Shown here: positions 3,623 through 35,407 of the stretch, one piece after another
Layout: the number at the start of each line of letters is the position of its first letter
Position numbering within the stretch: position 1 is the first letter of the stretch
Assembly: GCF_018279165.1 (NCBI RefSeq)
Contig: NZ_CP047294.1
Location: forward strand, 1 to 44,911
DNA from: Falsirhodobacter algicola
Lineage (GTDB): Bacteria; Pseudomonadota; Alphaproteobacteria; Rhodobacterales; Rhodobacteraceae
Length of the DNA stretch: 44,911 nt
Direction of reading: 5' to 3'
Program-made: the position numbers and the translations under genes
The notes under the pieces: generated by a model
Database searches by the model: none
Told to the model about the DNA's origin: nothing
The model's input: the letters and a program-made list of their open reading frames with translations, nothing else

Positions 3623-3849
3623 AGCGACTGCCTCCTGCCCCGTCCCTACGCGCCAGAGAAGTTCGAGGTTCTGCGCAAATCGGCCCCGGTGGTCGTCCGA
3701 CATGGGGTTGGCGTTGCCGGTTCCGGTCGTTGCACTACAGCAGCAGCGGTAAGCCGGTTGCAGAACAGCACCTGCCTGCCAAGGTGACCGCTCGTGGGAC
3801 ATTCCCGCCGTTCGTGAGCAGACGCCGGTGTCAGAAGTTTCGGTCAAAA

Positions 3850-4710
3850 TCACGCAAATCGTTTTGCTCCCGCGACGCACGCCACAATCAGCAGCGTCAC
3901 AGCGATCATCGACCACGCCACGGATTCACCCAGCACTACACTCGCTAATGCGAGCCCGAAGAACGGTTGCAGGAGTTGCAACTGACCGACGCCAGCGATG
4001 CCACCGAGCGCAAGCCCTCGATACCAGAAAACGAACCCGATCCACATGCTGAAGACGGAAACGTAACCCAGTCCTAGCCACACCGGGATCGTGACGCGGC
4101 CCCAGTCGGATGGCCACGTTCCCGCTGCGAGAACGGCCATGACAGGTGCAGCCAGAACCAGCGCCCACGAGATGACCTGCCAGCCACCGAGACGACGGGA
4201 GAGGACGGCCCCCTCGGCGTAGCCCAAGCCACAGATTAGGATCGCGGCCAACATCAGCAGGTCGCCGGTCAGGGTGCCATCTGCGCTTTGCGACCAAGCA
4301 TAGAGTGCGACGAGCAGGCTTCCTCCGTAGGAGAAGAGCCAAAACGCCCGCCGAGGCCGCTCCCCGCCCCGGATCACACCGCAGATGGCGGTTGCCAGCG
4401 GTAAGAGGCCGATGAAAACAATGGAACGGGCCGAGGTGATGTGCTGCAAGGCAAGAGCGGTCAACAGTGGAAAGCCGACAACGACGCCCGCCGCCACGAC
4501 CGCAAGTGGAGCAACATCAGACTTCGAAGGCCGGGTTTGACGCCACAGCATCAGCGCCGCCACAGCGAGAACCGCTGCAATCACGGCGCGGGCTGATGTG
4601 AGGAACATGGGAGAAAGGCCAGATACCGCCACTCGTGTGGCCGGTAAGGATCCACTGAATATGATGACGCCGATGAGGCCGCTGCCCCATCCCTTGCTTG
4701 AAAGACCCAT
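3850..4710 (-). CDS. EamA-family (drug/metabolite) exporter
   Basis: 286 residues, ATG at 4710. The protein is almost entirely hydrophobic, with about ten predicted membrane helices in two repeats, for example LIGVIIFSGSLPATRVAV at the start and WSMIAVTLLIVACVAGAKRF at the end. Each half carries an EamA-like pattern; RSIVFIGLLPLATAI closes helix 4 of the first half. It is transcribed divergently from the MocR-type regulator at 4825 with 114 bp between them. That arrangement is common for MocR-controlled amino-acid or vitamin B6-related exporters. The substrate is not evident. Confidence 0.85.
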   Translation of the reverse strand: MGLSSKGWGSGLIGVIIFSGSLPATRVAVSGLSPMFLTSARAVIAAVLAVAALMLWRQTRPSKSDVAPLAVVAAGVVVGFPLLTALALQHITSARSIVFIGLLPLATAICGVIRGGERPRRAFWLFSYGGSLLVALYAWSQSADGTLTGDLLMLAAILICGLGYAEGAVLSRRLGGWQVISWALVLAAPVMAVLAAGTWPSDWGRVTIPVWLGLGYVSVFSMWIGFVFWYRGLALGGIAGVGQLQLLQPFFGLALASVVLGESVAWSMIAVTLLIVACVAGAKRFA

Positions 4711-4824
4711 GACTGCCCTCGTTGTTTTTCCTTTTTGTTACGAGAAGGCCGCTGGTGGAGATAGGCACGGGAGGCATACAAAAGCACCGAACTGTATTCC
4801 CCACTGGACCCATACGGCAGCATC
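4711..4824. promoter_or_regulatory. Divergent promoter region between the EamA exporter and MocR regulator
   Basis: The 114 bp separate two genes transcribed away from each other, so both promoters and the likely MocR operator lie here. MocR-type proteins usually bind direct repeats in such spacers, but I could not single out a convincing repeat. The call rests on gene arrangement only. Confidence 0.4.
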
Positions 4825-6204
4825 ATGACGAACCGGACAACGCAGGTGATGGACGCGATCCGCCGCAAGATCGCGGAACGGGCGCTTCTTGCAGGGGAGC
4901 GGGTGCCGTCGATCCGCATCCTTGCAGCGAAGATGGGTGTCTCGCCTTCGACTGTCGTCGAAGCCTATGACCGACTGGTGGCGGACGGGGTGATCCGGTC
5001 GCGGCCCGGTGCCGGTTTCTACGTCGCGGATCGCGCGGCGTTCACGAGCCTTCGGCCTCCGGCCACGGATTTGGAGCGGTCGGTCGATCCGCTGTGGGTG
5101 TCGCGGCAGTCGCTCGATGCGGCACCCGGTGTATCGAAGCCGGGATGCGGGTGGATGCCGCCCGACTGGATGCCGCAGGCGGCGATCCGGCGTGCGCTGC
5201 GCCAGATCAGCCGCAGCGATAATGCCCTGCTTGTGGACTATGGCCGCTCGCGCGGCGGGCAGGATCTCCGTCACCTTCTGGCGCGACAATGCGCGGAGGA
5301 AGGTTTGCCGGTCGATCCCGACATGGTGCTGCTGACCGGCTCCGGATCACAGACCCTGGACCTGATCTGCCGCCTCTTGCTGCGTCCGGGCGATACGGTT
5401 CTGGTTGATGATCCCTGCTACTTCAACTTCCAGGCGCTGCTGCGCGTCCTCGGGGTCCGCATCGTGTCGGTGCCCTTCACCCGCGACGGTCCCGATCTGG
5501 CCGCGTTCGCCAAAGCCTTGGAGATTCATCGGCCGCGCCTCTACCTGACGAACTCCGCGCTGCACAATCCGACCGGTGCCACGCTGTCGGCACAGACCGC
5601 GCACCGCCTGCTGTTGCTTGCGGCTGAATGGAATCTGACCATCGTGGAGGACGACACATTCGCCGCGTTGGAACCGGACCTGTCGCCTCGCCTTGCCATC
5701 CTCGACGGGCTGCAACGCGTCATCCGGATCGGCAGCTTTTCCAAGACGCTTTCGGCTGCGGCCCGCTGTGGCTACGTCATCGCACGGCCGGAGCTAGTCG
5801 AGGCGCTGACTGACTTGCAGGTCGCCACCAACTTTGGCGGGCCGAGCCCCATTACCGCAGAAATCGTCCGGATCACGCTGGCGGACGGAAGCTACCGCAA
5901 GCACATCGCCGCCACCCGAACGCGGCTCGCGCGGGCGCGGCGGGACGCTAGCGAGAGGCTGGACCGGCTGGGGATCGTGCCTTGGCTCATGCCCCGCGGG
6001 GGCTTCTACCTGTGGTGTCAACTGCCGGAAGGGAAGGACGCGCAAATCGTTGCCAAAGCCGCTCTGGAAAGAGGGGTAGTTGTTGCCCCCGGCAACGTAT
6101 TCAGCGCTGCCGGGACCGCAGGAGACTTCATGCGTTTGAACGTCAGTCAGGTAGCGTCTCCCGTCTTTGAGCACCTGGCGGAGATCTTGCGAACGTCCGG
6201 TTAG
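4825..6204 (+). CDS. MocR/PdxR-type regulator (GntR DNA-binding domain fused to aminotransferase-like domain)
   Basis: 459 residues. Residues 1-70 form a GntR winged helix: VMDAIRRKIAERALLAGERV, PSIRILAAKMGVSPSTVVEA, then GVIRSRPGAGFYVAD. After a short linker, residues of about 100-455 form a fold-type I PLP aminotransferase domain. This includes HNPTGATLS and the Schiff-base lysine motif SFSKTLSAAARCGY. Such proteins are transcription factors that sense an amine or PLP derivative rather than working enzymes. The divergent EamA exporter is its likely target. Length and motifs are complete, with no frameshift. Confidence 0.9.
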   Translation: MTNRTTQVMDAIRRKIAERALLAGERVPSIRILAAKMGVSPSTVVEAYDRLVADGVIRSRPGAGFYVADRAAFTSLRPPATDLERSVDPLWVSRQSLDAAPGVSKPGCGWMPPDWMPQAAIRRALRQISRSDNALLVDYGRSRGGQDLRHLLARQCAEEGLPVDPDMVLLTGSGSQTLDLICRLLLRPGDTVLVDDPCYFNFQALLRVLGVRIVSVPFTRDGPDLAAFAKALEIHRPRLYLTNSALHNPTGATLSAQTAHRLLLLAAEWNLTIVEDDTFAALEPDLSPRLAILDGLQRVIRIGSFSKTLSAAARCGYVIARPELVEALTDLQVATNFGGPSPITAEIVRITLADGSYRKHIAATRTRLARARRDASERLDRLGIVPWLMPRGGFYLWCQLPEGKDAQIVAKAALERGVVVAPGNVFSAAGTAGDFMRLNVSQVASPVFEHLAEILRTSG

Positions 6205-6275
6205 GGCTCTGAGCGCTGGCCCAGCATGGACCGACGCAGCTGAAAAATGGCAACTCTTGCCCGATCACAGGGGAA

Positions 6276-6820
6276 GTGGATGCCGCTTCGCTTTATCGTT
6301 GCCACGGGCTGGTCTTCACCTCCGCCGGAAGCGCTGCGGGGATCGACCTGTTGATCGAGATCGTGAAGCGAGATTTCGGTCCCGAAGCCGCGAACTCGGT
6401 CGCGCGCCGTCTGGTGGTGCCGGCCCACTGGACGGGCGGTCAGGCTCAGTCCTTGAGCGCCCCGTGCCGGTCCACTGAGGCGGGCAGATCGCGCCGCTCC
6501 TCGACCGGATGCGCGGGGTGCTGGATCAGGACTGGCCGGTGGAGCGCATGGCCGAGGATTGGAGGATGAGCTCCCGCACCTTCCTGCGACGCTTCCACGA
6601 CCCGACCGGCGGCACGCCGGGCGACTGGCTGATCGCGGAGCGGGTCGAGGCGGCCAAGGCCCTACTGCGCGGCGGCGCGCTCGGCATCGAGGCGATCGCC
6701 GAGGCCGTGGGGTTCGGATCGGCCCACGCCCTACGTTACCACTTCCGCACCCGCGCCGAATTGCCACCCTCGGCCTATCGGCAGCGGTTCCTGCCAGTGG
6801 CTAGACTCGCCGACGCGTGA
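6276..6820 (+). pseudogene. FtrA/GlxA-like AraC regulator, truncated and frameshifted
   Basis: The stretch LVFTSAGSAAGIDLLIEIV, then FGPEAANSVARRLVVPAHWT (frame 3) is the end of a DJ-1/PfpI-like domain of GlxA/FtrA regulators. The continuation LERPVPVH appears in frame 2 near 6455. It is followed by an in-frame TGA at 6476-6478, and then the AraC HTH: MRGVLDQDWPVERMAEDW, SSRTFLRRFHDPTGGTPGDW, EAIAEAVGFGSAHALRYHF. One frameshift, one nonsense codon and the missing N-terminal two thirds make this a clear pseudogene. It lies just downstream of the MocR gene on the same strand. Confidence 0.85.
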
Positions 6821-20400: not shown

Positions 20401-21015
20401 TCACTCTTCCCCCACGGGCACCCCTATATCCCCTTCGTCCTGCAACATCCCCGCATCCTGCATGGCCTCGAGATCGGGCAGGTCGCGGAGGGTATCGAGT
20501 CCGAAGGCCTCGAGGAACCCTGCGGCAGTGACATAGGTATAGGGCGCGCCGGGTTCGGGGCTGCGGGGACCGCGGGCGATCAGGCCTTGGCGGTGCAGAC
20601 GGGCGATGAGGTCACGGCTGACCTCTTTCCCCGTGACGCGGGTGATGGCCTCGCGCGTGATCGGCTGCATATAAGCGATGATGGTCAGCACCAGCGCCTC
20701 GCGCTCGGTCATCTCGCGGCGGGTCGGAGCTTCGTCGCCCCGCGCAACGCGGAGAGCGGCGGCGTGACGCGAACGGGTGCGGAACTGCCATCCGCCGGCA
20801 ACGCGGGCGATCTCGTAAGGGCGATCGGCCAGTTCGGCGATGATGTCTGCGATCAGCAGATCGAGCGCGCAGTCTCGCCCCACCACCTGCGCCAGAACCT
20901 CGCGTCCAACCGGTGTGCCGGAGGCGAACAGCACCGCTTCGACCCGGCCCATCCATTCCCGCCAGCGCAGGGCTTGGGGCAGATCCTCCAGCTCCCGATC
21001 GAAGCTGTCGCCCAT
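20401..21015 (-). CDS. scpB: ScpB-like SMC-complex subunit (accessory copy)
   Basis: 204 residues, ATG at 21015. ScpB consists of two winged helices. Here RVEAVLFASGTPVGREVLAQ opens the first, and GWQFRTRSRHAAALR-V leads to EREALVLTIIAYMQPITREA, then RQGLIARGPRSPEPGAPYTY in the second. ScpB normally joins SMC and ScpA in chromosome condensation; neither is encoded on this replicon. It starts two bases after the DUF1403 stop, so the two are co-transcribed. This plasmid copy is more likely part of the recombinase/DUF1403 maintenance set than of the housekeeping condensin. Confidence 0.87.
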   Translation of the reverse strand: MGDSFDRELEDLPQALRWREWMGRVEAVLFASGTPVGREVLAQVVGRDCALDLLIADIIAELADRPYEIARVAGGWQFRTRSRHAAALRVARGDEAPTRREMTEREALVLTIIAYMQPITREAITRVTGKEVSRDLIARLHRQGLIARGPRSPEPGAPYTYVTAAGFLEAFGLDTLRDLPDLEAMQDAGMLQDEGDIGVPVGEE

Positions 21016-21017
21016 GT

Positions 21018-21923
21018 TCAGAGCCCGTAAAGCCGGAAGGCGGGGCGCCCGGTCAGCTCCCGGACCACACCAAACCCCGTCAACCGGTCCATCCGTCGCC
21101 GCAGCGCGCGATCGTTCCGCGGCACGGCGATTGCGTCCTCACGGAGCAGCCAATCGATCGTTGCCTTAGCCCCCGTGCCGCGCAGCTTCGGAGCGACGGC
21201 GCGCAGGGCGGCGGCGCGGTGCTCAAGGTCCCGCCGCAGATCCACCGCCGCCACCGCCCCCCTGCCCCAAGCAACCGCGCAGGCCATGGCCCAGTCCTCG
21301 CCACGCATGCGGACGGCGGAGCGCGGCAGATGCGTTGCCAGAAGCGGCACCGGCCGCGCCCAGCCAAGCGCGCGGGCCAGATGCGCATCGCCTAACCACA
21401 GCGCCACCCCGCGCGCCTTGGGTCCGAGATTCAAGAGTTCCTCCGCCGCCCCCGCCGCGAACGGCAAGGGCGGCACCCGCCCCGGCAGCCGTGCCCCCTG
21501 CCCCGTCAGAACCGATGCCAACTCTTCTGCGACCAGATCGAACATCGACGGCAGCCGCTGCGGCCAATCCCCGCCGCGCAAGGCCCGCGTCTTGCCCAAA
21601 AGCCGCCATGCCGCATACTGCCGCCCCGCCGGCCCGGGATCGTCAAGCACTCCTCGAAACGCCCACGCATCGCGTAGCTCGGATTCACGCTCCCCCCGCC
21701 CCTCCAGCGCGCAGACCGCCGCCCCAGCCGCAAGTGCAAGACGCTGGCGCCACAGCTCTCCTACCGGCGCCTCGCAGCGCGCCAGTGGATCGAGTAGTGC
21801 CAAAGCCGCGCCGGCGAAAAACGGCGCCATCTCCAGGGCTTCGGTGCACAGACCGGCCCGCAGCCAGCACGGCACGGGCGCGGGGTCAGGCGACATAAGG
21901 AGAGGCGAGGCAGGGTCTGTCAT
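21018..21923 (-). CDS. DUF1403 family protein
   Basis: 301 residues, ATG at 21923. It is alanine- and arginine-rich and mostly helical. I recognise the DUF1403 pattern: FFAGAALALLDPLAR near the start, LAAGAAVCALEGRGERESEL, and RAVAPKLRGTGAKATIDWLL near the end. The C-terminus (NDRALRRRMDRLTGFGVVRE) may be a winged helix. Function is unknown. It lies between scpB (downstream) and, divergently, a recombinase gene. A perfect palindrome occupies the spacer, so a DNA-maintenance role is inferred. Confidence 0.75.
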   Translation of the reverse strand: MTDPASPLLMSPDPAPVPCWLRAGLCTEALEMAPFFAGAALALLDPLARCEAPVGELWRQRLALAAGAAVCALEGRGERESELRDAWAFRGVLDDPGPAGRQYAAWRLLGKTRALRGGDWPQRLPSMFDLVAEELASVLTGQGARLPGRVPPLPFAAGAAEELLNLGPKARGVALWLGDAHLARALGWARPVPLLATHLPRSAVRMRGEDWAMACAVAWGRGAVAAVDLRRDLEHRAAALRAVAPKLRGTGAKATIDWLLREDAIAVPRNDRALRRRMDRLTGFGVVRELTGRPAFRLYGL

Positions 21924-21989
21924 GCCGGAAGCCTAAAACAGTGCGGCGGATAAGGCGATGAAAAAACCATCAAACCGCCGCCCTTGTCT

Positions 21990-22038
21990 TGTTTCATTCA
22001 TGTCCGATAATGTTAAATTATCGGACATGAATGAAACA
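21990..22038. repeat. Perfect palindrome, 22-bp arms with a 5-bp spacer
   Basis: The left arm 21990-22011 (TGTTTCATTC…CCGATAAT) and right arm 22017-22038 (ATTATCGG…GAATGAAACA) are exact reverse complements around GTTAA. It lies between the divergent DUF1403 and recombinase genes, 42 bp upstream of the recombinase ATG. Two inverted recombinase-binding arms around a 5-7 bp core is the architecture of a tyrosine-recombinase crossover site. An operator for either gene, or a bidirectional terminator, is a lesser possibility since no T-run follows. Confidence 0.75.
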
Positions 22039-22080
22039 TCCCGCGAAAGCCCCTGAACCCGCATCGAAAGCTACGCCGCC

Positions 22081-23100
22081 ATGGCCGAAACGCCCACCCT
22101 GCCCCCCGCAACCGAGGTCTCTTCGGCTCTGCGCGATCTCTCGGCCCGTGCCCGTGGTTATGCCGAAGCGGCGATCGCGCCGAACACCCGCCGCGCCTAC
22201 GCTTCGGACTGGAGCCATTTCGCCGCCTGGTGCCGCCGCGAGGGACTAGAGACCACCCAGCCCGACCCGCACACGGTTGGCCTCTACATCACCGCCTGCG
22301 CCAGCGGCGCGCCCTCGGTCGGCGGCAAGGCGTGCAGCGTCGCCACGATCAACCGCCGTCTCTCGGCGCTGTGCTGGGCCTATGTCCAACGCGGCCAACC
22401 GTTGGACCGCACCGACCGGCACATCGCCACGGTCATGGCCGGGATCCGCAACCGCCACGCCCGGCCACCCGTGCGGAAAGCTGCAATCCTGCCCAATGAT
22501 CTGCGCGCCATGCTGGCCACCTGCGATGCCGCCTCCCTGCGAGGGCTGCGCGACCGGGCCATGCTTCTGATCGGCTTCGCAGGTGGCCTGCGGCGCTCCG
22601 AGCTGACCGGTCTTGATCTAGCCCGCGACCAGACCGAGGACGGGCGCGGCTGGATCACGATCCTGCCCGAGGGACTGCTGCTGACGCTCCGCGGCAAGAC
22701 CGGCTGGCGCGAGGTCGCCATCGGGCGCGGCTCCACGCCCGCCACCTGCCCCACGGAGACGCTGGTAGTCTGGCTGCGCTTCGGGCGTATTGGTCAAGGG
22801 CCGCTGTTCCGCCGTGTCTCTGGCACCTCCGTCGGTGCCCTGCGCCTGAACGACCGCGAGGTGGCCCGCATCGTCAAACGCGCCGCCCTTGCCGCCGGTC
22901 TGCGCGGTGACATCCCCGAAGCCGACCGCCCTGCCCTGTTCGCCGGCCATTCCCTTCGCGCTGGTCTGGCCAGCAGCGCCGAGGTAGATGAAGCGCACGT
23001 TCAACGCCACCTTGGCCACGCCAGCGCCGAGATGACGCGGCGCTATCAACGCGGACGCGATGTCTTCAGGGTCAACCTGACCAAGGCGGCAGGGTTATGA
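22081..23100 (+). CDS. XerC/D-like site-specific tyrosine recombinase
   Basis: 339 residues, ATG at 22081. An N-terminal SAM-like core-binding domain (IAPNTRRAYASDWSHFAAWC) precedes the catalytic domain. The full active-site set is present: Arg in GFAGGLRRSELTGL, Lys in LRGKTGWREVAIG, H-x-x-R in FAGHSLRAGLAS, His in RHLGHASAEM and Tyr in MTRRYQRGRDVF. It is thus probably active, unlike the other recombinases of this window. Adjacency to DUF1403 and scpB, and a perfect palindrome at its promoter, suggest a dedicated resolution or segregation system. Confidence 0.88.
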   Translation: MAETPTLPPATEVSSALRDLSARARGYAEAAIAPNTRRAYASDWSHFAAWCRREGLETTQPDPHTVGLYITACASGAPSVGGKACSVATINRRLSALCWAYVQRGQPLDRTDRHIATVMAGIRNRHARPPVRKAAILPNDLRAMLATCDAASLRGLRDRAMLLIGFAGGLRRSELTGLDLARDQTEDGRGWITILPEGLLLTLRGKTGWREVAIGRGSTPATCPTETLVVWLRFGRIGQGPLFRRVSGTSVGALRLNDREVARIVKRAALAAGLRGDIPEADRPALFAGHSLRAGLASSAEVDEAHVQRHLGHASAEMTRRYQRGRDVFRVNLTKAAGL

Positions 23101-23462: not shown

Positions 23463-24638
23463 TCACTCGCCAGCGAACTGTGCCACACTGGGAGACCCGG
23501 CACGTTGCGCAAGACGGTCCAGCAGGGTGAGCGGTTCGAAGCTTATACGGCGTCGTCCGCTGACTAGACTGCGAAAGTATGCCTCCATATTCCTCACACG
23601 TCCGTGGATTCGGACCATGAGCATCACAGATATTGCAGCAGGCAATGCGCCTAGACTTGTGCGGGCTTCCTCCTGCAATGCAGGCTTGATCCCGATCATT
23701 GGCGCGAGCATGTGCCCTAGCGCGATCATATCGTTCTCTGTTCGTGGTGGCTTTTCGGCAAAGTCGAGAGCGTCCTGGCAGGCGATGGCTAGCTTCCCAA
23801 GCAATGACTTTAGTTCTGTTCTATGTGGCGAGGCATGCTGATTCAAGCTATTCTTATCTTTATCTTCTATTTTAGACTTAGAATGGTTACGGTCATTATG
23901 GCCGCCAGTGTCGGACATTTCGGAAGGGTCATCTGTTTCCATCGTTTTCGTGACGTGTTTGAACTCGGTGCAGGGTAGGGCACTCTTACCCTTATCGGTG
24001 GCTGCGTCTTCAGCCGGTCTAACGGCTGAAACAGGGGTGAGTGCGTTAAGGCTGTTGCGCAGATCGCGCAGGTCATCAGCCGTAAGCTTCCGGCGAACGC
24101 GCAGGCGCGCCTCGGCGAGCGCTGCCGGAGCAACGTTTTCGCCTTCGAGGCGTGAGATGAGGTCCTTGACGATTGTGATCAGGTGCCGACGCTCGAGCAT
24201 GCTACGGTTATGCTCATTCAGGGCATGGGACCAGCGATCGCGAGATTCTACCATGGGCTTCAGATCGAAGCCAAATGCTATAGTATCAGCTGGCGATGCG
24301 CCACGGCTCACATAGCGTTTGAAGTTCGGGCTGTCGCGTCGCTCTAGGATCCCGATGGCTACCAGATCCGACACATGACGGCGGATCGTGCGTTCGCTGA
24401 CACCGGCCAGCCTACGCATCAGTTCGCGGGTCGATGCAAAGCAAACAGTTCCGCGACCCGGCTTGAGGCAACTTATCATCGCCGCGAGCGTCTGAATGAC
24501 CTTTGGCTTCAGCCCCAGCGTAGGGGCCGCATCTCGGATCGTTTGAAAAATGATCCAGGTTTCGTCAGCATTGCCCTTGGGGACAGCGGCATCGATCGCC
24601 CCAACGGGGGGGCGGGACATCAGCTTTTTGAATGTCAT
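23463..24638 (-). CDS. repC: Plasmid replication initiator RepC
   Basis: 391 residues, ATG at 24638. N-terminal RepC segments are GLKPKVIQTLAAMISCLK, GTVCFASTRELMRRLAGVSE and TIRRHVSDLVAIGILERRDS, a winged-helix replication-initiation region. The C-terminal domain (MISLGHMLAPMIGIK-like, then IHGRVRNMEAYFRSLVSGRR) is the usual RepC tail. RepC starts replication from an origin inside its own gene and sets copy number. Third gene of repABC; the 247-bp gap to repB holds an antisense RNA that limits RepC synthesis. Intact. Confidence 0.93.
   Translation of the reverse strand: MTFKKLMSRPPVGAIDAAVPKGNADETWIIFQTIRDAAPTLGLKPKVIQTLAAMISCLKPGRGTVCFASTRELMRRLAGVSERTIRRHVSDLVAIGILERRDSPNFKRYVSRGASPADTIAFGFDLKPMVESRDRWSHALNEHNRSMLERRHLITIVKDLISRLEGENVAPAALAEARLRVRRKLTADDLRDLRNSLNALTPVSAVRPAEDAATDKGKSALPCTEFKHVTKTMETDDPSEMSDTGGHNDRNHSKSKIEDKDKNSLNQHASPHRTELKSLLGKLAIACQDALDFAEKPPRTENDMIALGHMLAPMIGIKPALQEEARTSLGALPAAISVMLMVRIHGRVRNMEAYFRSLVSGRRRISFEPLTLLDRLAQRAGSPSVAQFAGE
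23841..23900. other. AT-rich segment inside repC, candidate origin of replication
   Basis: Within otherwise GC-rich DNA, 23841-23885 is a run dominated by A and T (ATTCTTATCTTTATCTTCTA, then TTTTAGACTTAG). In repABC plasmids the origin lies inside repC in an AT-rich stretch, which matches. No iterons were recognised. Confidence 0.55.
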
Positions 24639-24770
24639 TCGGTTTTACCGGCCAGATCGCGGAGCCGAGCATCGCCGTCCGGATGCACTCACGAAAGGGT
24701 GGGCACAACTCACTGGTCTTCCGAATCGGAAGCTATTGACGGGCACAGTGGAGGCTGGTAGGCATGAGGG

Positions 24771-24826
24771 TGCAAAAAACGTGACTACCGGGCTCTCCAG
24801 GGGATACTCTGGGGGGCTCTTTTCTT
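24771..24826 (+). ncRNA. repABC counter-transcribed RNA (incompatibility RNA)
   Basis: In the repB-repC gap, on the strand opposite the operon, a promoter-like TTGACG (24736-24741) is followed after 17 bp by TAGGCA (24759-24764). About 30 bp downstream is a hairpin, CTCCAG-GGGATACT-CTGGGG (24795-24814, one wobble pair), followed by CTCTTTTCTT. This gives a roughly 56-nt RNA with its own terminator. Location, polarity and size match the known repABC antisense RNA that represses repC and causes incompatibility. Ends are estimates. Confidence 0.65.
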
Positions 24827-24885
24827 ATGCGGTCTGTAGCGGTCCTCCTTTCTGTGGTTGTTATGTTGATGGATGGGGCAGGGGC

Positions 24886-25926
24886 TTAGCCCTTGTCCCG
24901 GCTATCCGTCCAGCGGTCATGGAGCAGGCGCAGGATTTCGTCCACGTTATCCTCAAACCACTGTCCGAACTGAGGCTGATGCCGTAATGAGACATTCAGC
25001 GAAATGCTTCGACCTGTCTTCTTCAGCGTGCCGATATGACGCCCCGAAAGCGCGAGAGGCCTCGAAGCTGGGAGGGCAGTTCCTGCCGTTGTGCCCGCGG
25101 TCACAGCGGCAGGAACGTCGGGTGGGGCAGAGCCAGCCTGGACTGAATGTTTAATAATTTCCTTTGCTTGACGGTAAATTCCATCGAAACGATCCGACCC
25201 GGTGCTGTCGGGCGAGCGATCGGGACCGGGGATCAGGGCGCGCAAGTCGATGCCGTCGTCGCGCGCCATTTGCGCGAGCTCCGTCCAAAGCCGGCGACCT
25301 ATGTCCGGCGCAGCTCCAATATGCAGGATCACCTCGAGAGGCACGTTGTCGACGACCGTCGACATCTTTGAGATGGCGGTGCGGTCGATGCCGAGAGCGT
25401 CTTGAATAATCTGAGAGTCATATCCAGCGGATTTCAGCTCGCGGACAAAGAGCGCCTTCTCGATGTAGGACGGGTCGACCCTGAGACTGTTCTCCTGACC
25501 TTGCGCAAGGATGGCGGCATCTTCGGCGAGATGCCGGACGATCGCCTTCACACGAGCCGTCGGACCGATCTTCCGAATAGCCGCGAGACGGCGACGGCCA
25601 TAGACAATGATGAAGCGGTTCATGCTGTCGGGGTGGGGCCGAACGAGTATGGGCACCTGCTGCCCATGCGTCCTGATGCTTTCGGAGAGCCGAGCGATCT
25701 CGCCAGGATCGAGTTCGATCCGGTCCTGAACACCGGAATCAATGATCAATGCTGGGTCCAGTTCTTGGATGCCGCTCTCGCTCATGTCCCGCAGGCTGCT
25801 TCCGAGGGTTTCCAGTGCGGGCGCACCATGCCTGCGGGCTGGTGCGCCAAGCGCAGGATCCTGAAGCGTTGTAGCAGGCGAAGCCTGATGAGTAAGGGCC
25901 GTCTCGAAGATGTTCTTCCGTCCCAT
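24886..25926 (-). CDS. repB: Plasmid partition protein RepB (ParB family)
   Basis: 346 residues from the ATG at 25926, which shares its A with the repA stop (TGATG) and has AAGGA just upstream; an in-frame GTG at 25941 is the alternative. ParB features: the RIELDPGEIARLSESIRTHG box with GQQVPILVRPHPDS, and IVYGRRRLAAIRKIGPTARV. The HTH is DSQIIQDALGIDRTAISKMS, and the C-terminal dimer region ends WFEDNVDEILRLLHDRW. It binds parS and works with RepA in segregation. A 19-bp candidate parS lies inside this gene. Confidence 0.93.
   Translation of the reverse strand: MGRKNIFETALTHQASPATTLQDPALGAPARRHGAPALETLGSSLRDMSESGIQELDPALIIDSGVQDRIELDPGEIARLSESIRTHGQQVPILVRPHPDSMNRFIIVYGRRRLAAIRKIGPTARVKAIVRHLAEDAAILAQGQENSLRVDPSYIEKALFVRELKSAGYDSQIIQDALGIDRTAISKMSTVVDNVPLEVILHIGAAPDIGRRLWTELAQMARDDGIDLRALIPGPDRSPDSTGSDRFDGIYRQAKEIIKHSVQAGSAPPDVPAAVTAGTTAGTALPASRPLALSGRHIGTLKKTGRSISLNVSLRHQPQFGQWFEDNVDEILRLLHDRWTDSRDKG
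25088..25106. repeat. Candidate parS (RepB-binding) site, copy 2, inside repB
   Basis: Exact second copy of GTTGTGCCCGCGGTCACAG, here in the codons of the RepB linker (around PAAVTAGTTAG). Flanks differ from copy 1, so the identity is limited to the palindromic element. That favours a binding site over a duplicated gene fragment. Confidence 0.6.
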
Positions 25927-27134
25927 CAGGTCCTTCCCCACGACCGCTGGATGAGGCTTTCGATCTCATCCGATACGGCATTGCAGCTCTGCACGGCACG
26001 TTCGATGGTCTTCTTCACGAATTTGCCGGGGTCGACCTCGTAGACCGTCTGTTGGGTCATTCCCGCGTCACTGATTGCCGTCGATTTGAGCATCGGTTCC
26101 GTCAGGACTTCGTCTTCGAGGATGGCCCGGAGGTAAGCGGCCATCTGTGTCTGAGGCCCGTCGGAGGGCTCGTATCGCGTGAGAAGAAACTTCACGAAGT
26201 TCCAGCTGATGGGCTCAGGCCGGTTCGTGTGATGCTGGATCGTTCTGAACAAATCGCCCGCAAGACTGAGGAACTGCGACATGGAGGCGATGTCGAGCAT
26301 GCTGGGCACCACCGTCACGATAAGCGCGGATGAGGCCGCGAGGGCTGTCAGCGTGGTGAAGCCAAGCTGCGGAGGGCAGTCGATGATCACCAGATCATAG
26401 TTCGCCTCCACCCTTCCGAGTTGGATTGTCAGGCGTTCCGCGAAGGTCGGTGAAATCCTCTGGCCAAGCGCGTAGGCGGTATTGGTCTCGTATTCGGATA
26501 GGACCAGACCCGCCGGCACGAGGTCCAGATTGTGGAAGTAGGTCTTTTTGATGATATGTTCGATGCCCACCTGATCTTGGTCGTAGCGAAGGCAATCGTA
26601 GAGAGTGCCCTTGTCCTGGAACTCAATTTCCGGGCGGTAGCCGAACATGGTAGTCGCGGACGCTTGGGCGTCGGCGTCGACCAGAAGCACCCTATAGCCG
26701 CGTAGCGCGAGCCTCTGTGCGACGTGGCAGCTGGAGGTCGATTTCCCCGAACCGCCTTTGAAATTGACAAAGCTGAGCACCTGAAGAGCGTCCCCGGCCT
26801 GCCGTCCCGGCCGATAGGAGAGGACATTCTTACCGGTCGTATACATGCGGTCCCGAATCTGATCGATCTTCTCGGCGGAAAACCAGCGATGCCCGCGGGC
26901 ATCCGTCACAGGCTGAGGAAAATCAGGGTCGTCCGCTAGCCGCGTGTTAAGGTTCGATATGGAGATACCCGTCAGCTCCGAGACCTCGCGTGCAGAGAAT
27001 AGCCTGAGCATCTTCCGCTCTTCCGGCCGGAACGCATTCTTCATCTGGCGATCCAGCGAGTGCGCCAAGCTCTCGGCGAACTGTGAGATTCGGTCAGAGT
27101 TGAAACTCCGTTCCAAAAGACTCATCTCGTTCAT
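25926..27134 (-). CDS. repA: Plasmid partition ATPase RepA (ParA family)
   Basis: 402 residues from the ATG at 27134, with TGAGGCAG upstream; the frame stays open to a TTG at 27158. The N-terminal HTH (LFSAREVSELTGISISNLNT) gives operon autorepression. The deviant Walker A is FVNFKGGSGKSTSSCH, then VLLVDADAQASATTMFGYRP, and Walker B-like LVIIDCPPQLGFTTLTALAA. RepA drives segregation with RepB at parS and represses the operon from its own promoter. First gene of repABC, translationally coupled to repB. Confidence 0.94.
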   Translation of the reverse strand: MNEMSLLERSFNSDRISQFAESLAHSLDRQMKNAFRPEERKMLRLFSAREVSELTGISISNLNTRLADDPDFPQPVTDARGHRWFSAEKIDQIRDRMYTTGKNVLSYRPGRQAGDALQVLSFVNFKGGSGKSTSSCHVAQRLALRGYRVLLVDADAQASATTMFGYRPEIEFQDKGTLYDCLRYDQDQVGIEHIIKKTYFHNLDLVPAGLVLSEYETNTAYALGQRISPTFAERLTIQLGRVEANYDLVIIDCPPQLGFTTLTALAASSALIVTVVPSMLDIASMSQFLSLAGDLFRTIQHHTNRPEPISWNFVKFLLTRYEPSDGPQTQMAAYLRAILEDEVLTEPMLKSTAISDAGMTQQTVYEVDPGKFVKKTIERAVQSCNAVSDEIESLIQRSWGRT

Positions 27135-27168
27135 CACTGCCTCATACACGACCCTCAAAGGGCTCTTT

Positions 27169-28002: not shown

Positions 28003-28824
28003 TCAGATCGCATCAGCGCGACGCAGCAGCCATGCCGACAGCACCATCCCGCTCGAAGCGATCATGCTCGCGTCGTCAGCCGACAGCTCCTCTTCGGTTC
28101 CCACGACGCGGCCATGGCCTGTTCCCGCAAGGTTTCGGAGTTCGTTAGCCGCGATGATGATCTCCTTTGCGCCGTAGACGATCGAGCGGATCTTCTTCTC
28201 AACTTCGCTGGCGGGAGCGCCCTTGGGTGCCATTCCCAATTCGGTGAGGCACCTATTCATCAGGGCAGGAAAGTCGAGCTTCTCCACGCCTGTCACGCCG
28301 CGCTTATCGAGGATCGACCGCATGGCGGCTTCGAGAAGATCTTTCGTCGCCCCAATAGCGGCTTTGGGATCGTGCGGCAGCGTCCCTTCAACTCGTGCGG
28401 CATACGAACCTAGGTCGATCATGTCGCGGGCAGCATCGACCGTGCCCAAGCTGTGCGACAGCGCCGAGACCAGCGGATCTTGCTGGCCGTGCCAGGCGAC
28501 AAGGAGATCGTCGGACAGTTCCTTTTGAACCCTCGGGATCTCAAAGAGGACCATGAGCGCCGGGACGTTTTGGCGGCAGAGATGATCGATGAGGTTGATA
28601 ACGTGCCCCTCGTAGTCATGGTCTCCCCAGTCGCAGCTACGGAGGAACCGGGGGTGATCCGAGATCTCCCTGTCCAGACCGAAACGAATGGCGAACTTCT
28701 TCCAGTTGCTGCTGCCATAGGCCTTCGCGACGATCTCAGCCAATTCGACCTTAAACCTACCAAGGGTCGCGGGGTCGTCTGTGATTCCCTCGGGCAGCTC
28801 AGGCTTACGCTTAATCTTCGGCAT
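28003..28824 (-). CDS. Abortive-infection family protein with C-terminal HEPN (Abi_C-type) domain
   Basis: 273 residues. The ATG at 28824 has GGGAG eight bases upstream; the frame extends further but only through SRAP pseudogene debris. The N-terminal 100 residues (LAEIVAKAYGSSNWKKFAIR, then HDYEGHVINLIDHLCRQNVP) look like an effector-associated/DED-like adaptor domain. The C-terminal half (GSYAARVEGTLPHDPKAAIG, ATKDLLEAAMRSILDKRG) ends with ELRNLAGTGHGRVVG. This carries the R-x6-H RNase motif of Abi_C HEPN proteins. The expected role is RNA cleavage and growth arrest on phage attack. Downstream partner at 27490. Confidence 0.78.
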   Translation of the reverse strand: MPKIKRKPELPEGITDDPATLGRFKVELAEIVAKAYGSSNWKKFAIRFGLDREISDHPRFLRSCDWGDHDYEGHVINLIDHLCRQNVPALMVLFEIPRVQKELSDDLLVAWHGQQDPLVSALSHSLGTVDAARDMIDLGSYAARVEGTLPHDPKAAIGATKDLLEAAMRSILDKRGVTGVEKLDFPALMNRCLTELGMAPKGAPASEVEKKIRSIVYGAKEIIIAANELRNLAGTGHGRVVGTEEELSADDASMIASSGMVLSAWLLRRADAI

Positions 28825-28855
28825 CGGATGCTCCCACTGGCGCATCGAAGAACTA

Positions 28856-29170
28856 GGGCATTGCGCCTCAGGAAAAAAGGGCGCGATCGCCCGCTGGTAA
28901 TCTAACGACACCAAGACCGCGGCCGCCACCACTCTGCACCGCTCCCGCACGCCGGTATCGAGCGCGTCCGGCGCCTTTAGGAACTGTGGCGGCGTCGGCA
29001 TGCCCCAGTTGAGATGGGCTCCCGGGTGGGGCCGATGATGCGGATTCCGAAGCACTACGATTGGGATAGACATCCAGTGACGGCTCAAGGTTGCCAAGAC
29101 TGTCGGACATCACCCCGACGATATCGCGGATCGCTTGTTGGTTCGTCGTCAGATTATACAGGTTGCACAT
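28856..29170 (-). pseudogene. SRAP/YedK-type (HMCES) gene, decayed
   Basis: Starts MCNLYNLTTNQQAIRDI (ATG 29170), with the Cys2 that crosslinks abasic DNA, then GNLEPSLDVYPN. The frame then shifts, and LNWGMPTPPQFLKAPDA continues in a different one. Beyond that only a degenerate echo remains (WWRP…, then PFFPEA) before the Abi gene. At least two frameshifts and loss of the C-terminal half make it non-functional. It is divergent from imuA, with an SOS box between, as expected for an SOS-response-associated peptidase. Confidence 0.75.
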
Positions 29171-30538: not shown

Positions 30539-31150
30539 CTCGGTTGCCTGCACGAGGTGGCGGGCGGCGGCAATGGCGCGGTCGATGGTGCGGCGGCGGC
30601 CTGCTTTGCGGCGGGCATCGCGGCACGGCTGCCGGGGCAGGTGCTGTGGTGCGTGACGCAGGCCGATCTCTTTGCGCCGGGGTTGGAGCAGGCGGGCCTG
30701 CCCGCGACCCGCGTGATCCATGTCGAGGCGGGCGATGATACTGCGGTCCTTGCTTGCATGGAGGAAGGGCTGCGCCATGGCGGGCTGGCGGCCGTGGTGG
30801 CCGATGTGGCGCGGCTGTCGATGACGGCATCCCGCCGGCTGCATCTGGCGGCCAAGGGCTCGGGAACCACCGGCATCGCCTTGCGACGCTGGCGCCGGCA
30901 GGCGGAGGCCAGCGACTTCGGCCAACCGACGGCAGCGATGACGCGCTGGCGGGTTTCGGCGCTGCCTTCTGCACCGCTGCCGGTGCAGGGGGTGGGCCGC
31001 GCGCGTTGGATGGTGGAATTGCTCCGCGCGCGGGCGGGCGAGAGTTTCGATATCGAATTGGAGGCATGCGATGGCACGGGTCATCTCGGTCTTCCTGCCG
31101 ATGTGGCCGGTGGACCGGCTGCGACGGCAGGAAGACTCGCCTTCGGATAG
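30539..31150 (+). pseudogene. imuA: imuA, 3' part (interrupted)
   Basis: Continues ImuA from LGCLHEVAGGGNGAVDG through AACFAAGIAARLPGQVLWCV, TQADLFAPGLEQAGLP and ALRRWRRQAEASDFGQPTAA to its stop at 31150. This overlaps the imuB start by 80 bp, as is common in this operon. ImuA is the RecA-like adaptor of the ImuA-ImuB-DnaE2 mutasome. It has no native start here, so functional ImuA is unlikely unless the insert is excised. Confidence 0.87.
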
Positions 31151-34100
31151 GCCACTGGTGCTGGCGGGGCGCATCGGCAACCGCCGGGTGCTGACGGCGG
31201 TGGATGCCGGCGCGGCGGGCCTCGGCGTTACCGTCGGCATGCCGGTCAGCAAGGCGCAGGCGTTGGTGCAGGGTCTGCGGATCGAAGCTGCGAACCCAGA
31301 GGCCGATCTGGCCAGTCTGGAGCGCTTGGCGTTCTGGATCCTGCAACGCATCGCGCCCATCGTCGCGGTCGATCCGCCGGACGGCATCGTGATCGACAGC
31401 ACGGGGGCCGACCATCTGCATGGCGGCGAAGAGGCGCTGTTAGAGGCGCTGACCGGCCGCCTTGCCCTGTCGGGCGTGACGGCGCGGGCGGCGGTGGCGG
31501 ACACATGGGGCGCGGCCCATGCGCTGGCGCGGTTCGGCGGCGATCTGCACGCCATGCCGCCCGAGGCGCTGCGCCTGCCCCCCGCCACCGTCGCGGGGTT
31601 GCGCGATATGGGCTTTGCCACCATCGGCGATCTGATGGCTGCGCCCCGTGCGCCGCTGACCCGCCGTTTCGGCTCCGAACTGATCCGCCGCATCGATCAG
31701 ATGTTCGGCGATGCAGCCGAGCCCATCGACGCCCTGCGCCCCCCAGGTCTGATCGAGACCCGCCGCGCCTTTGCCGAACCCATCGGCGCGGCGGAAACCA
31801 TCGCGCGGTATATCAACAAGCTGGTTGTGGCCCTGTGTGCAATTCTGGACGAACGCGGCCTTGGCGTGCGCCGTCTGGACCTGATCTGCCACCGCGTCGA
31901 CCGAGAGCGTCAAACCGTCCGCATCGGCCTTGCCGTGCCGCAGCGCGATCCGCAGCGCCTGACGCGGCTCCTCTGCGACAGGATCCCCACCATCGCCCCC
32001 GGCTTCGGGATAGAGATCATGACCCTGACCGCCACCATCACCGAGCCCTTGGCTGCACGGCAGACCAGCACCCTCGCGCCCGAGGCACCGGACCTGTCCG
32101 GCCTGATCGACACGCTGGCGGGCCGCGTCGGCCATCGCGCCATCTACCGCATTGCCCCCGTCGCCAGCGATGTGCCCGAACGCTCCGTCCGCCGCATTCC
32201 CGCGCTGTCCGAACCTACCGCCGAGGGCTATGTCCTCGGCATCACCTCGATCGATCCGGGTCGCAACGATCTGCTGTTCGAACGCTTCATCTCCGAAGAG
32301 CGGCGGGAGCCGCCCGACATCGACGTCGACTTCGAGCATGAACGGCGCGAGGAGGTGATCCAGTGGATCTACAAGACCTACGGCCGCACCCATGCCGCGC
32401 TGACGGCGGTGGTCACCCGCTACCGCGCCAAGGGGGCGCTGCGCGATGTCGGCAAGGCGATGGGCCTGCCAGAGGATCTGATCTCGGCGATGTCCGCCTC
32501 GATCTGGGCCTGGTCCGAGGAGGGCCTGACCGACGCGCAATTGGAGGAGTTGAACCTGAACCCCTCCGACCGCCGGCTGCGCCTGACGATGGAGTTGGCC
32601 CAGCAGCTGATGGGCGCGCCGCGCCATCTCTCGCAGCATCCCGGCGGCTTCGTTCTGACCCACGATCGACTGGACGATCTGGTGCCCATCGAGCCCGCCG
32701 CGATGGAGGACCGCCAGATCATCGAATGGGACAAGGACAACATCGACGCGCTGAAGTTCATGAAGGTGGACGTGCTGGCCCTCGGGATGCTGACCTGCAT
32801 GGCCAAGGGCCTGAAGCTGATCGCGGACCATAAGGGCGCGGCGTATGACCTTGCCACCATCCCCGCCGAGGACCCGCGCACCTATGCGATGATCCGCAAG
32901 GCCGACACGCTGGGCACCTTCCAGATCGAAAGCCGCGCGCAGATGGCGATGTTGCCGCGCCTGAAGCCGCGCACCTATTACGATCTGGTCGTGCAGGTCG
33001 CTATCGTCCGCCCCGGTCCGATCCAGGGCGACATGGTCCACCCCTATCTGCGCCGCCGCGCAGGGCTGGAGGCTGTGGAATATCCCAAGCCCGAGCTGGA
33101 GAAGGTGCTGGGCAAGACGCTCGGCGTGCCGCTGTTCCAAGAGCAGGCGATGCGGGTGGCCATCGAATGCGCGGGCTTCACGCCCGGCGAGGCCGACATG
33201 CTGCGAAAGTCCATGGCGACCTTCAAGTTTACCGGCGGTGTCAGCGCGTTCCGTGACAAGCTGATCGACGGGATGGTCGCGCGCGGCTACGAAGCCGGTT
33301 TCGCCGAGCGGACGTTCAGGCAGCTTGAGGGGTTCGGCAGCTACGGTTTCCCCGAAAGCCATGCGGCCAGTTTTGCCCTCATCGCCTATGCCTCATCCTG
33401 GCTGAAGTGCTGGCACCCCGACGCCTTCTGCGCCGCGCTGCTGAACAGTCAGCCTATGGGGTTCTATGCCCCGGCGCAGATCGTGCGCGATGCCCGCGAT
33501 CACGGGGTGGAGGTGCGGCCCGTCTGCGTGAACGTATCCGAATGGGACTGCACGCTGGAAGGGGGCGCCGTCCGGCTTGGCCTGCGCATGGTGAAGGGGC
33601 TGGCCGAGGCGCATGCCGCTGCGATTGCCCGCACCGCGCCCTTCACCTCGGTCGAGGATCTCTGGCGCCGTGCCCGCGTTCCCGCTGCCGCTTTGACCTG
33701 CATTGCCCAAGCGGATGGCTTCCACAGCTTCGGCCTGAGCCGCCGTCAGGCCGTCTGGGCTATCAAGGGCCTACCCGACACCGACCTGCCGCTTTTCGCT
33801 GCCGCCGAGAGCGCAGAGCCTGCCGTCCCCTTGCGCCCGATGACCGCAGGGCGGGAAGTGGTCGAGGATTATAGCCGCACCGGCCTGTCCCTGCGCCAAC
33901 ATCCGGTCGCCTTCCTGCGCGGCGATCTGGCGAAGCGCCGCATCCTGACCTGCGCCGAAGCGATGGCCCTGCCGAACCGCCACTGGGCCGAAGTGGCAGG
34001 GCTGGTGCTGGTCCGCCAGCGCCCCAGCTCGGCCAAAGGCACCATGTTCATCACCCTCGAGGACGAGACCGGCATCGCCAACCTCGTCGTCTGGCCGAAG

Positions 34101-34415
34101 ATCTTCGAGGCCAACCGCCGCACCATCCTCGCCGCCGGCATGATCGCCGCCCGCGGCCGCATCCAACGCGAAGGGGAGGTCGTCCACTTCGTCGTTCAGC
34201 ATCTGGCCAATTTTTCCGCCGCCCTCGGCAGCGTCGGAAGTCGCGGTGCTTTTCCGTTGCCCATTAAGCGCGGCGACGAGTTCTATCACGGCAGCCCGAC
34301 GCCTGATCCGCGCCATCCGAAACCGCCGCCACCCGGCGGGCCGAAGCCCCGCCACATGTTCATCCGCGATCTGCATCTCGATACGATCCGCATGAAGACG
34401 CGGGATTTTCGGTGA
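31071..34415 (+). CDS. In-frame fusion of ImuB (N-terminal part) with DnaE2 (C-terminal two thirds)
   Basis: 1,114 residues, ATG at 31071. Residues 1 to about 384 are ImuB, the inactive Y-family polymerase-like adaptor: [40 protein letters not shown], and [15 protein letters not shown]. From about residue 387 ([20 protein letters not shown]) it is DnaE2: [20 protein letters not shown] with two catalytic Asp, [14 protein letters not shown] with the third, then the fingers, and an OB fold ([20 protein letters not shown]). Missing are the ImuB C-terminus with its clamp-binding region, and the DnaE2 PHP domain and palm start including G-R-G-S-A-A-N-S. A deletion joining imuB to dnaE2 explains it. 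Polymerase activity is doubtful. Confidence 0.88.
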
Positions 34416-34531: not shown

Positions 34532-35407
34532 TCAGATGGCACCGCCTCGGGAGCGGAGGTGGTCATATTCCGATGCCAAGCTTGGATTTCTCCGCTGATC
34601 GTCTTTCGGAAGGTGCTTGAGCAACTCGTGTTTCTCTACCCACCACTTGAAGTCCATACCCCAATTTGTAGAGCAGTTGAACATGAGAAGCTTCACCTCC
34701 GCGGAGCTTAGCTGTGCTCGAAGAATTTTAGAATAAACTTCTCTCTCGTTGTCATCCGCTTCAAGAAATTCAATTTGCCGAACACAGTTATACATGAGCC
34801 GAAAGTATGGCCCCAAGCTTGACTCAAACAACAGGTCATAAAGCTCGAGATAATGCATCAATTGCATTTCGACGGTTAAGCTCACTGAACCATCCTGCAT
34901 AAGCTCGTCTGGCAGCTCGCTTGCAAAGTATTCCAAGACGGCCCTCCCTCGGAAACCCTCACCGCCACCAATGTCCGCAGGCACGCGCATGTTAGACACG
35001 TGGTCATTAAGCAAACGCAGTGTCGAGAAATATCTATTTTCAAATCGTTGGCGTTCAAACTCCTCCCTGGTTTCCGTCAACTCCCCTCTTTGCAATGATA
35101 GCTCTTTGCGTTGGAGCACAAGCGTAACAATCAACCCTGCGAAGGCCAACCCCGAGAATAACGAAGATATGCTTCCGAACATATCTCCCGAAACCCCCGG
35201 GTCGCCAGGCTCCCCGTATTGGATAGGGATTATAATCCACCCAACCAACCAAATCAGAACTACCAGCAGCAAGAGCAGGGAGACGATGCTTGCATCACGC
35301 CAAATTTCTTCCGCCCTTGCATCTCGCGCGAACCGTCTAGTCACGATCAAAAATGCGGCTATCAGGCACAGAAATCCAATGGCCGTAAGGGCAATATTTT
35401 GGGGCAT
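34532..35407 (-). CDS. Putative AbiC-type phage abortive-infection membrane protein
   Basis: 291 residues, ATG at 35407. Three hydrophobic segments: ALTAIGFLCLIAAFLIVT, VSLLLLLVVLIWLVGWIII, and SSLFSGLAFAGLIVTLVLQ. A charged coiled-coil-like stretch (RKELSLQRGELTETREEFER) follows, and then a cytoplasmic domain with FENRYFSTLRLLNDHVSNMR. This order (two helices, GDMFGSISSLFSGLAFAGL, then E/R-rich coil) is that of putative AbiC-like proteins. The region is less GC-rich than its neighbours, suggesting transfer. The mode of action is unknown. Confidence 0.72.
   Translation of the reverse strand: MPQNIALTAIGFLCLIAAFLIVTRRFARDARAEEIWRDASIVSLLLLLVVLIWLVGWIIIPIQYGEPGDPGVSGDMFGSISSLFSGLAFAGLIVTLVLQRKELSLQRGELTETREEFERQRFENRYFSTLRLLNDHVSNMRVPADIGGGEGFRGRAVLEYFASELPDELMQDGSVSLTVEMQLMHYLELYDLLFESSLGPYFRLMYNCVRQIEFLEADDNEREVYSKILRAQLSSAEVKLLMFNCSTNWGMDFKWWVEKHELLKHLPKDDQRRNPSLASEYDHLRSRGGAI

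Follow-up and report, generated by a model that had tools for sequence, protein, structure and literature searches.

The module described here lies on a stretch of 44,911 nucleotides of Falsirhodobacter algicola (contig NZ_CP047294.1; hereafter the window), which lies on contig C6 of a 6-contig, 2.78-Mb genome and carries repA, repB and repC as identified by NCBIfam. Two minus-strand genes 2 bp apart form one unit: a DUF1403 gene (21018..21923, 301 amino acids; PF07183, 194.5 bits), followed by scpB (20401..21015, 204 amino acids; PF04079, 112.5 bits against a cut-off of 27.4). A tyrosine recombinase gene (22081..23100, plus strand, 339 amino acids; PF00589 and PF02899) diverges from this unit, and the spacer between them holds a perfect palindrome with 22-bp arms and a 5-bp centre (21990..22038). 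An amidohydrolase gene flanks the module on one side; on the other lies repC, part of the adjoining replication and partition operon repC, repB, repA (23463..27158, minus strand; RepABC_RepC, partition_RepB and partition_RepA of NCBIfam, all above cut-off). The original prediction, made from the window's sequence, had recognized the coupled DUF1403-scpB pair, the divergent recombinase with its complete active site and the palindrome, and each of these stands. Together the genes make up a genuine module, widespread on plasmids.

In the window, the palindrome (arms 21990-22011 and 22017-22038, complementary at 22 of 22 positions) is the sole perfect inverted repeat with arms of at least 13 and a gap of at most 20; about 1.5e-7 perfect inverted repeats with 22-bp arms are expected there by chance. 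For comparison, a set of 68 distinct spacers was chosen by the core alone, with identical segments counted once and scored only with a 7-bp-centre layout. The dyad common to these spacers spans 11 bp per arm, giving a 29-bp core with a 7-bp centre. Over the next 11 positions beyond the shared arms, 10 are complementary in the window against 0 to 7 in the other 67 spacers. Judged from this alignment, the 22-bp arms are peculiar to the window copy and the conserved unit is the core at 22000..22028, ATGTCCGATAA-TGTTAAA-TTATCGGACAT. The conservation that the original prediction expected of the palindrome is thus found for the core, which accompanies the second element described below in 64 of 80 other DUF1403 loci, but not for the full arms, which among the 68 spacers occur only in the window. 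The consensus arms are ATGTCC(A/G)ATAA and TTATCGGACAT, and the centre is often gtTTGCa in homologous spacers. Arm changes are mirrored in places (ACGACCGATAA...TTATCGGTCGT in locus L006, GACTGATAA...TTATCAGTC in L013); the core is not fully symmetric, because at one arm position A stands opposite C in 40 of the 68 spacers. The centre (22011-22017), asymmetric and partly conserved among the 68, is the presumed strand-exchange region. Up to 2 mismatches, the core is the sole such site in the host genome. A second core copy within the same locus, as in an att-flanked insertion, was sought in the collected loci and none was found. A sigma-70-like promoter (TTGTCT-16-GATAAT, 21984..22011, plus strand; consensus scan only, 1 found against 0.1 expected) overlaps the left core arm, and the recombinase is possibly its target gene.

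Half-sites are also observed, with only the left half in L034, L082, L175 and L180 and only the right half in L186, the other side being other DNA. They may be what is left of an exchange with a site that did not match, or of insertions; a search downstream of L034 and L082 for the corresponding right halves found none.

Alignment of the 68 spacers revealed a second conserved element that had been overlooked in the earlier reading: an inverted repeat, CGGCGCTTT-N19-AAACCGCC, without strand, at 21944..21979 (window copy CGGCGGATA...AAACCGCC, matching at 14 of 17 positions). It scores at least 13/17 in 68 of 68 distinct spacers, a score reached by only 2 of 68 shuffles. The gap between its arms is 19 in 65 of 68 spacers, and in 67 of 68 it is separated from the core, to its right, by exactly 20 bp; the centre-to-centre distance is about 52 bp, or about five turns of B-DNA. 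Symmetry was counted in the 64 of 68 spacers with at least 6 left-arm matches. The outer positions show dyad symmetry (GGCG is complementary to CGCC in 63-64 of 64 spacers, TT to AA in 58-62 of 64), and one conserved position, -51/-25, is mismatched, being complementary in only 12 of 64. Because of this conserved mismatch, the element looks more like a dyad for a protein than like an RNA stem. An RNA hairpin or terminator in the spacer was rejected, both for this reason and since no terminator-like site was found at 21900-22120.

The three genes mostly occur together, as the original prediction had supposed. We collected the best 80 of 562 confirmed DUF1403 loci in GTDB genomes (81 with the window). 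All 80 have ScpB on the DUF1403 strand and downstream of that gene, within 60 nt in 72, and a recombinase match was found within the fetched stretch in 66 of 80, including two fragments (L022, L033) and one copy on the far side of scpB (L008). With the window, core and second element are found together in 65 of 81 loci; 10 others have only the element, and 6 lack both. For the reverse test, searching the whole class for the recombinase yielded just 2 of 289 genomes at E<=1e-60, so a search of the host's family was used, in which the recombinase was found in 47 of 248 genomes. The resulting 31 recombinase-chosen loci comprise the window, one locus from the class-wide search and 29 from the family search. 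A divergent DUF1403, core and element are present in 23 of them (with ScpB also in the stretch in 21), one has the core alone, and seven have neither DUF1403 nor core; among these seven, L166 is truncated at the end of its contig, and L186 retains a match to ScpB besides its right half-site. Extra low-scoring ScpB copies occur in 10 of 41 family genomes, 9 of the 10 being among the 47 recombinase-positive ones, an overlap counted by genome.

Among 72,556 plasmid records, 3,329 match the window recombinase in tblastn, the best place reaching at least 60% identity in 482. The module is common, on plasmids of both soil and marine bacteria: DUF1403 matches occur in 602 plasmid records and core-like sites at 640 places in 604 records, weak matches included. 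Nine records were hand-picked from the best 60 of these 604; seven carry this recombinase type, which is absent from the other two, both sphingomonad plasmids, and six carry DUF1403 and ScpB. Annotated examples from Paracoccus, Dinoroseobacter, two Rhizobium and Bradyrhizobium all have DUF1403-scpB divergent from the recombinase, with other genes intervening between the divergent units in L002. A phage origin was rejected: no DUF1403 was found in phage records, and the recombinase matches in 6 phage records are all below 60% identity.

In annotated loci whose recombinase is distant from the core, genes have been inserted between the two. These are toxin-antitoxin pairs in the recombinase's orientation: Fic/VbhA in L002 (6821-7657) and VapBC in L095 (5189-5847) and L102 (5092-5735). 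Other toxin-antitoxin pairs adjoin the recombinase or repABC. In L008, from Pseudogemmobacter humi, the open frame of DUF1403 runs far upstream (about 1,139 codons; 3388-6804, plus strand), and the recombinase beyond scpB is converging.

The strongest evidence in our analysis comes from the exchange of flanking DNA at the core. Among 103 loci having core and element, we compared all pairs with enough flank in 300-bp windows, defining a pair as one-sided when identity was at least 97% on one side and below 90% on the other. L133 and L134 were left out of the main count since both had been fetched for looking one-sided, which biases counts that include them. The core has 21 one-sided near-identical pairs, 8 of them left-only and 13 right-only, against 4 two-sided pairs. 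At control anchors placed at -900, -700, -500, -400, +400, +500, +700 and +900, one-sided pairs number 3, 0, 3, 2, 4, 0, 0 and 0, and two-sided pairs 12, 13, 12, 11, 17, 17, 20 and 24. Intermediate pairs (90% to 97% on the other side), counted apart, number 0 at the core and 0-8 elsewhere. With three plasmid clones removed (100 loci), the core retains 13 one-sided and 0 two-sided pairs, compared with 0-4 and 4-15 at the controls; with L133 and L134 included, the core counts are 26 and 4. In the set without clones, five left and four right modules recur at two or more loci, each of the nine with different partners.

In 27 pairs compared in 400-bp windows (set including L133 and L134), the sequences diverge inside the core or at most 6 bp from its edges. 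Of the 12 pairs identical on the left, 11 already differ at a position within the core ahead of the break, eight of them in the 7-bp centre, which fits the centre as strand-exchange region. For example, L010 (an Afipia metagenome-assembled genome) and L011 (Ancylobacter) share 1,628 bp at 99.6% on the left and only 33%, ungapped over 400 bp, on the right. L038, L039 and L040 (Pelagimonas and two Ruegeria) share 2,014 bp at 99.6% on the left with L041 (Primorskyibacter), the match between L038 and L041 stopping at the right edge of the core. L041 in turn is identical over 1 kb on the left to Sulfitobacter pTHAF37_a (L133), and on the right 100% identical over 1 kb to S. pontiacus BL28 p4 (L134) except for one mismatch, in the centre. 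Plasmid matches of about 80% identity that end near query position 2069 (core 2028-2056) were excluded from the recombinants, because divergence alone could end such alignments. The recombinant pairs all come from related loci, and none includes the window itself. That the core is a natural exchange point, where plasmids have repeatedly swapped flanking DNA, is strongly supported by these comparisons.

The recombinase adjoining the core has R171/R172, K206, H290, R293, H313 and Y322 in invariant columns of a 6-sequence alignment; going by the pattern of the family, we take these to be the catalytic residues. The full R-K-H-R-H-Y motif is found in 63 of 64 family members (matches above 500 bits). 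The original label, XerC/D-like, is loose, the relation to Xer being distant: the window protein reaches 38-48 bits with the four best NCBIfam Xer models, whose cut-offs lie at 279-371 (XerD 45.6 bits, cut-off 329.6; XerC 45.5 bits, cut-off 335.15), and identity with XerC or XerD was rejected. Xer systems use 11-bp inverted arms, with an accessory sequence beside the core in cer and psi and a 6-bp centre in XerCD/dif. The present system shares with them a tyrosine recombinase and 11-bp inverted arms, and with cer/psi and res-type systems an element beside the core at a fixed distance, whose use by a protein is putative here; it differs in having one dedicated plasmid recombinase, a 7-bp centre instead of the 6 bp of dif, and an accessory element that adjoins the DUF1403-ScpB unit. 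With the 6-sequence profile, Cre ranks first among solved structures (2e-6); the window recombinase alone has no solved-structure match at E<=0.001. Cre/loxP is likewise a simple core served by a single recombinase, with other arms and another centre length, and we know of no counterpart there of DUF1403/ScpB or of the second element.

The only characterized relative is IntA of Rhizobium etli CFN42, a known plasmid-cointegrating tyrosine recombinase acting on plasmids p42a and p42d (PMC4928290, PMC3224233). It is reported to recombine attA and attD, 23-bp sites made of two palindrome arms and a central region, attA being printed as TCCGATAAGCATTACTTATCGGA (PMC4928290). We found on p42a a copy of this attA that departs from it by a single base; a gene for a site-specific integrase lies about 108 bp downstream of the copy. 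The integrase, whose gene is unnamed in the record and which we take to be IntA, is a homologue, not necessarily an orthologue, of the window recombinase (29% identity over 303 positions, E 4e-14). Both are plasmid-borne enzymes with a site of their own, and the sites share identical 8-bp arms, TCCGATAA and TTATCGGA, and the length of the centre: TCCGATAA-N7-TTATCGGA occurs exactly at window positions 22003-22025, near the window's recombinase gene. Plasmids recombine with each other at the site in both systems, as demonstrated cointegration for IntA and as natural recombinants in related loci here. They differ in that p42a has hxs genes as neighbours and no second element at the fixed place (best 9/17). 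DUF1403 is present on p42a only in split pieces (about 141 kb; L091 and L092) of opposite orientation, the C-terminal part on the plus and the N-terminal part on the minus strand, which suggests a rearrangement. The conserved core, its inner arms equal to those of the experimentally defined IntA att site, and the natural flank exchange give strong support to the original proposal of a recombination core within the palindrome.

The two sphingomonad plasmids, from Sphingobium and Sphingomonas, show the same core arms around a 6-bp centre, TCTTTC (L096 near 5001-5028, L097 near 5001-5026), downstream of hsp20 and Bax-inhibitor genes. On the Sphingobium plasmid a distant tyrosine recombinase (123 bits) lies beside the site; on the Sphingomonas plasmid no recombinase was found with this profile, and Tn7-like genes (Mu transposase, TniB, TniQ) directly follow the site. 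Since the p42a integrase and the sphingomonad plasmids keep the same arms, these seem common to a wider recombinase group, and the second element seems to go with DUF1403-ScpB. On S. meliloti pSmeLPU88b, a Cre-like recombinase and a toxin-antitoxin pair are also reported to lie downstream of repABC, with a mention of concatemer resolution (PMC10194956); the term ScpB does not occur in the main text of that report. Judged by titles and the openings of abstracts, no description of the module of DUF1403, ScpB and a tyrosine recombinase was found among the open-licence papers listed. The original statement that no described mechanism was known for this set agrees with that result for the gene set, but not for the recombination itself, which is of the known IntA/att type of R. 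etli; what is new is the bipartite site and the probable pseudo-Fic/ScpB pair.

DUF1403 is probably a pseudo-Fic protein and a candidate DNA-binding protein, which we state with moderate confidence on the basis of a predicted structure. The AlphaFold2 model, built with 65 sequences (pLDDT 86.6), is nearly all helical. Its eight best PDB matches in Foldseek are all Fic proteins (prob 0.89-1.00, E 0.027-0.49, none at E<=0.001). The likeness is to the SO_4266 type (3eqx, 3zec, 3zcn), with prob 1.00 and TMq 0.58-0.63, at an E of only 0.027 and a root-mean-square deviation of about 9. An hhalign comparison with 14 Fic proteins, themselves chosen by the catalytic motif, aligns the Fic core and the C-terminal helix-turn-helix (HTH) collinearly (E 0.001, at a probability of only 21%). 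The Fic catalytic motif, HxFx(D/E/N)GN or HPFx(D/E)GN(G/K)R, is found in 0 of 65 DUF1403 proteins, and Pfam Fic is absent from the families listed at E<=1 for these 65 members. HTH_13 is matched at E<=1 in 55 of 65 (best 2.7e-5), the window member not among them. At E<=10, the PDB sequence matches of DUF1403 are two, to other proteins (E 0.32 and 2.8). A role of DUF1403 as a kleisin standing in for ScpA was rejected, no ScpA chain being present in the best 50 of 179 Foldseek matches.

For ScpB, TIGR00281 gives 71.6 bits, under its cut-off of 89.2, and the AlphaFold2 model has two winged-helix domains, with ScpB chains such as 3w6j and 4i98 as best Foldseek matches (3w6j_C, E 3.9e-12). DUF1403-linked ScpB forms one long-branched clade (41 rows, support 100/100) apart from 30 chromosomal ScpB, in a tree built on a subsample of 41 of 86 rows, with a bootstrap not fully settled and one badly aligned chromosomal row. 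The host encodes chromosomal ScpA and ScpB. As the original prediction noted, the module has no ScpA; the genome's sole ScpA match is on contig C1, beside the chromosomal scpB. The likeness to SMC-ScpA-ScpB condensin thus lies in the family and fold of ScpB, and the differences in the lack of ScpA, the separate clade and the pairing with DUF1403 instead.

To account for the gene set, the core, the second element with its fixed spacing and the exchange breakpoints at the core, all observed in the compared sequences, the best explanation, and in our estimate a fairly probable one, is a plasmid site-specific recombination module with a proposed accessory element and accessory genes. Tyrosine recombinases act as dimers on inverted arms, and accessory sequences at fixed phase steer other plasmid resolution systems. 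The window-type recombinase would be the enzyme acting at the core, binding its two 11-bp arms and exchanging strands across the 7-bp centre. Exchange inside a single molecule would resolve plasmid multimers, which may be the selected function. Between co-resident plasmids it would produce cointegrates, like those made by IntA in R. etli; if these were later resolved at another place, plasmids with swapped flanks would result, the swapping then being a consequence. DUF1403, as a probable dead Fic fold with an HTH-like end, and ScpB as its dimeric partner would bind the inverted repeat at 21944-21979, about five helical turns from the core, and favour or time synapsis; co-occurrence and the fixed-distance element point to such control. 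The recombinase bound at the core might also shut its own overlapping promoter. We may further hypothesize that the dead-Fic DUF1403 and its private ScpB paralogue form a sequence-specific accessory factor deciding when, or between which molecules, plasmids recombine, possibly through host condensin; we advance this tentatively, at somewhat under an even chance.

Several observations weigh against this explanation. The one-sided pairs are few and non-independent, and the exchange they record is between molecules, which does not by itself show multimer resolution. IntA, the characterized relative, is only 29% identical to the window protein. A full core is lacking in 16 of 81 DUF1403 loci (3 with less than 300 bp of flank), and some recombinase copies stand without DUF1403 and core (L173, L177, L192). 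The second element has a degenerate left arm in the window and is weak or degenerate in some Rhizobiaceae and some others. In the seven sampled plasmid loci with this recombinase type, it scores at least 13/17 in only three (L094, L098, L099), so its sequence looks looser outside the GTDB DUF1403 set; it scores 11-12/17 at the same fixed place in L100, L101 and L102 and was not found in L095. Moreover, by its distribution the element follows DUF1403 and not the core, being kept at L027, L042, L061 and L066, where core and recombinase are undetected. Because it is so retained, its function may be no more than that of an autoregulatory operator of DUF1403-scpB, with the pair serving some separate plasmid job in segregation or regulation and being linked to the recombinase by shared location and inheritance. 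Its place just upstream of the DUF1403 start agrees with this, as does its position left of the breakpoint, whereby it travels with DUF1403 in exchanges, and the HTH-like end in 55 of 65 DUF1403 proteins would suit a repressor. However, a pure operator needs no exact 20-bp spacing to the core, the element keeps its place in six of the seven sampled plasmid loci even where degenerate, and the seven recombinase-chosen loci without core are also without a DUF1403 match. We regard this possibility seriously, though as less likely than not.

A further alternative is the one foreseen in the original prediction: host SMC-ScpA would be brought to the site by the plasmid ScpB, perhaps by way of DUF1403, and recombination would thereby be tied to segregation. 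The host does have chromosomal ScpA and ScpB, its only ScpA match lying on another contig, and the DUF1403-linked ScpB retains the ScpB fold; yet this ScpB is long-branched and apart from that of the host, and DUF1403 resembles Fic, with no kleisin in the best 50 of its 179 Foldseek matches, so that we consider the link unlikely. That the palindrome is mainly an operator or promoter element for the divergent genes, with recombination incidental, might be suggested by its location between them and by the promoter-like sequence overlapping the left arm. This is very improbable, as flanks reassort at the core far more than at control points, the arms are the same as those of a proven att site, and a dimer operator has no need of an asymmetric, partly conserved 7-bp centre. 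Finally, the core resembles the layout of dif, which has 11-bp arms with inner ATAA/TTAT, and host XerCD could exchange the flanks at a dif-like site, or RecA at a short homology, in place of the plasmid enzyme. We give this scarcely any weight: most sampled loci have a dedicated recombinase next to the core, homologous recombination is not expected to break at a 29-bp stretch, and the host genome contains no other such site up to 2 mismatches.

If exchange at the core is as frequent as the sampled loci suggest, the core would be a built-in joint for reassorting repABC plasmids, with a bearing on the movement of symbiosis, degradation and other plasmid traits between replicons. Recombination control by an accessory pair also suggests what DUF1403 and plasmid-borne ScpB might do, and it defines an 85-bp stretch of DNA (21944-22028) as their putative target. 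If the accessory-factor reading is true, a condensin subunit and a pseudo-Fic protein would have been co-opted to control recombination in hundreds of plasmids.

Elsewhere in the window, a single 1,114-residue frame (31071-34415, plus strand) joins a Y-family polymerase (ImuB-like, residues 25-331) to a part resembling DNA polymerase III alpha/DnaE2, the DnaE2-like match beginning within the NTPase domain. The junction is covered to at least 80% in one of 1,954 matching plasmid records, and there in two pieces over 1.2 kb; the frame looks like a deletion fusion of imuB and dnaE2. The window also carries defence-like genes on the minus strand, encoding a DUF3644 protein (candidate system PDC-S19; 754-1965), an AbiJ-like protein (28003-29097) and an AbiC/AbiP-like protein (34532-35407).

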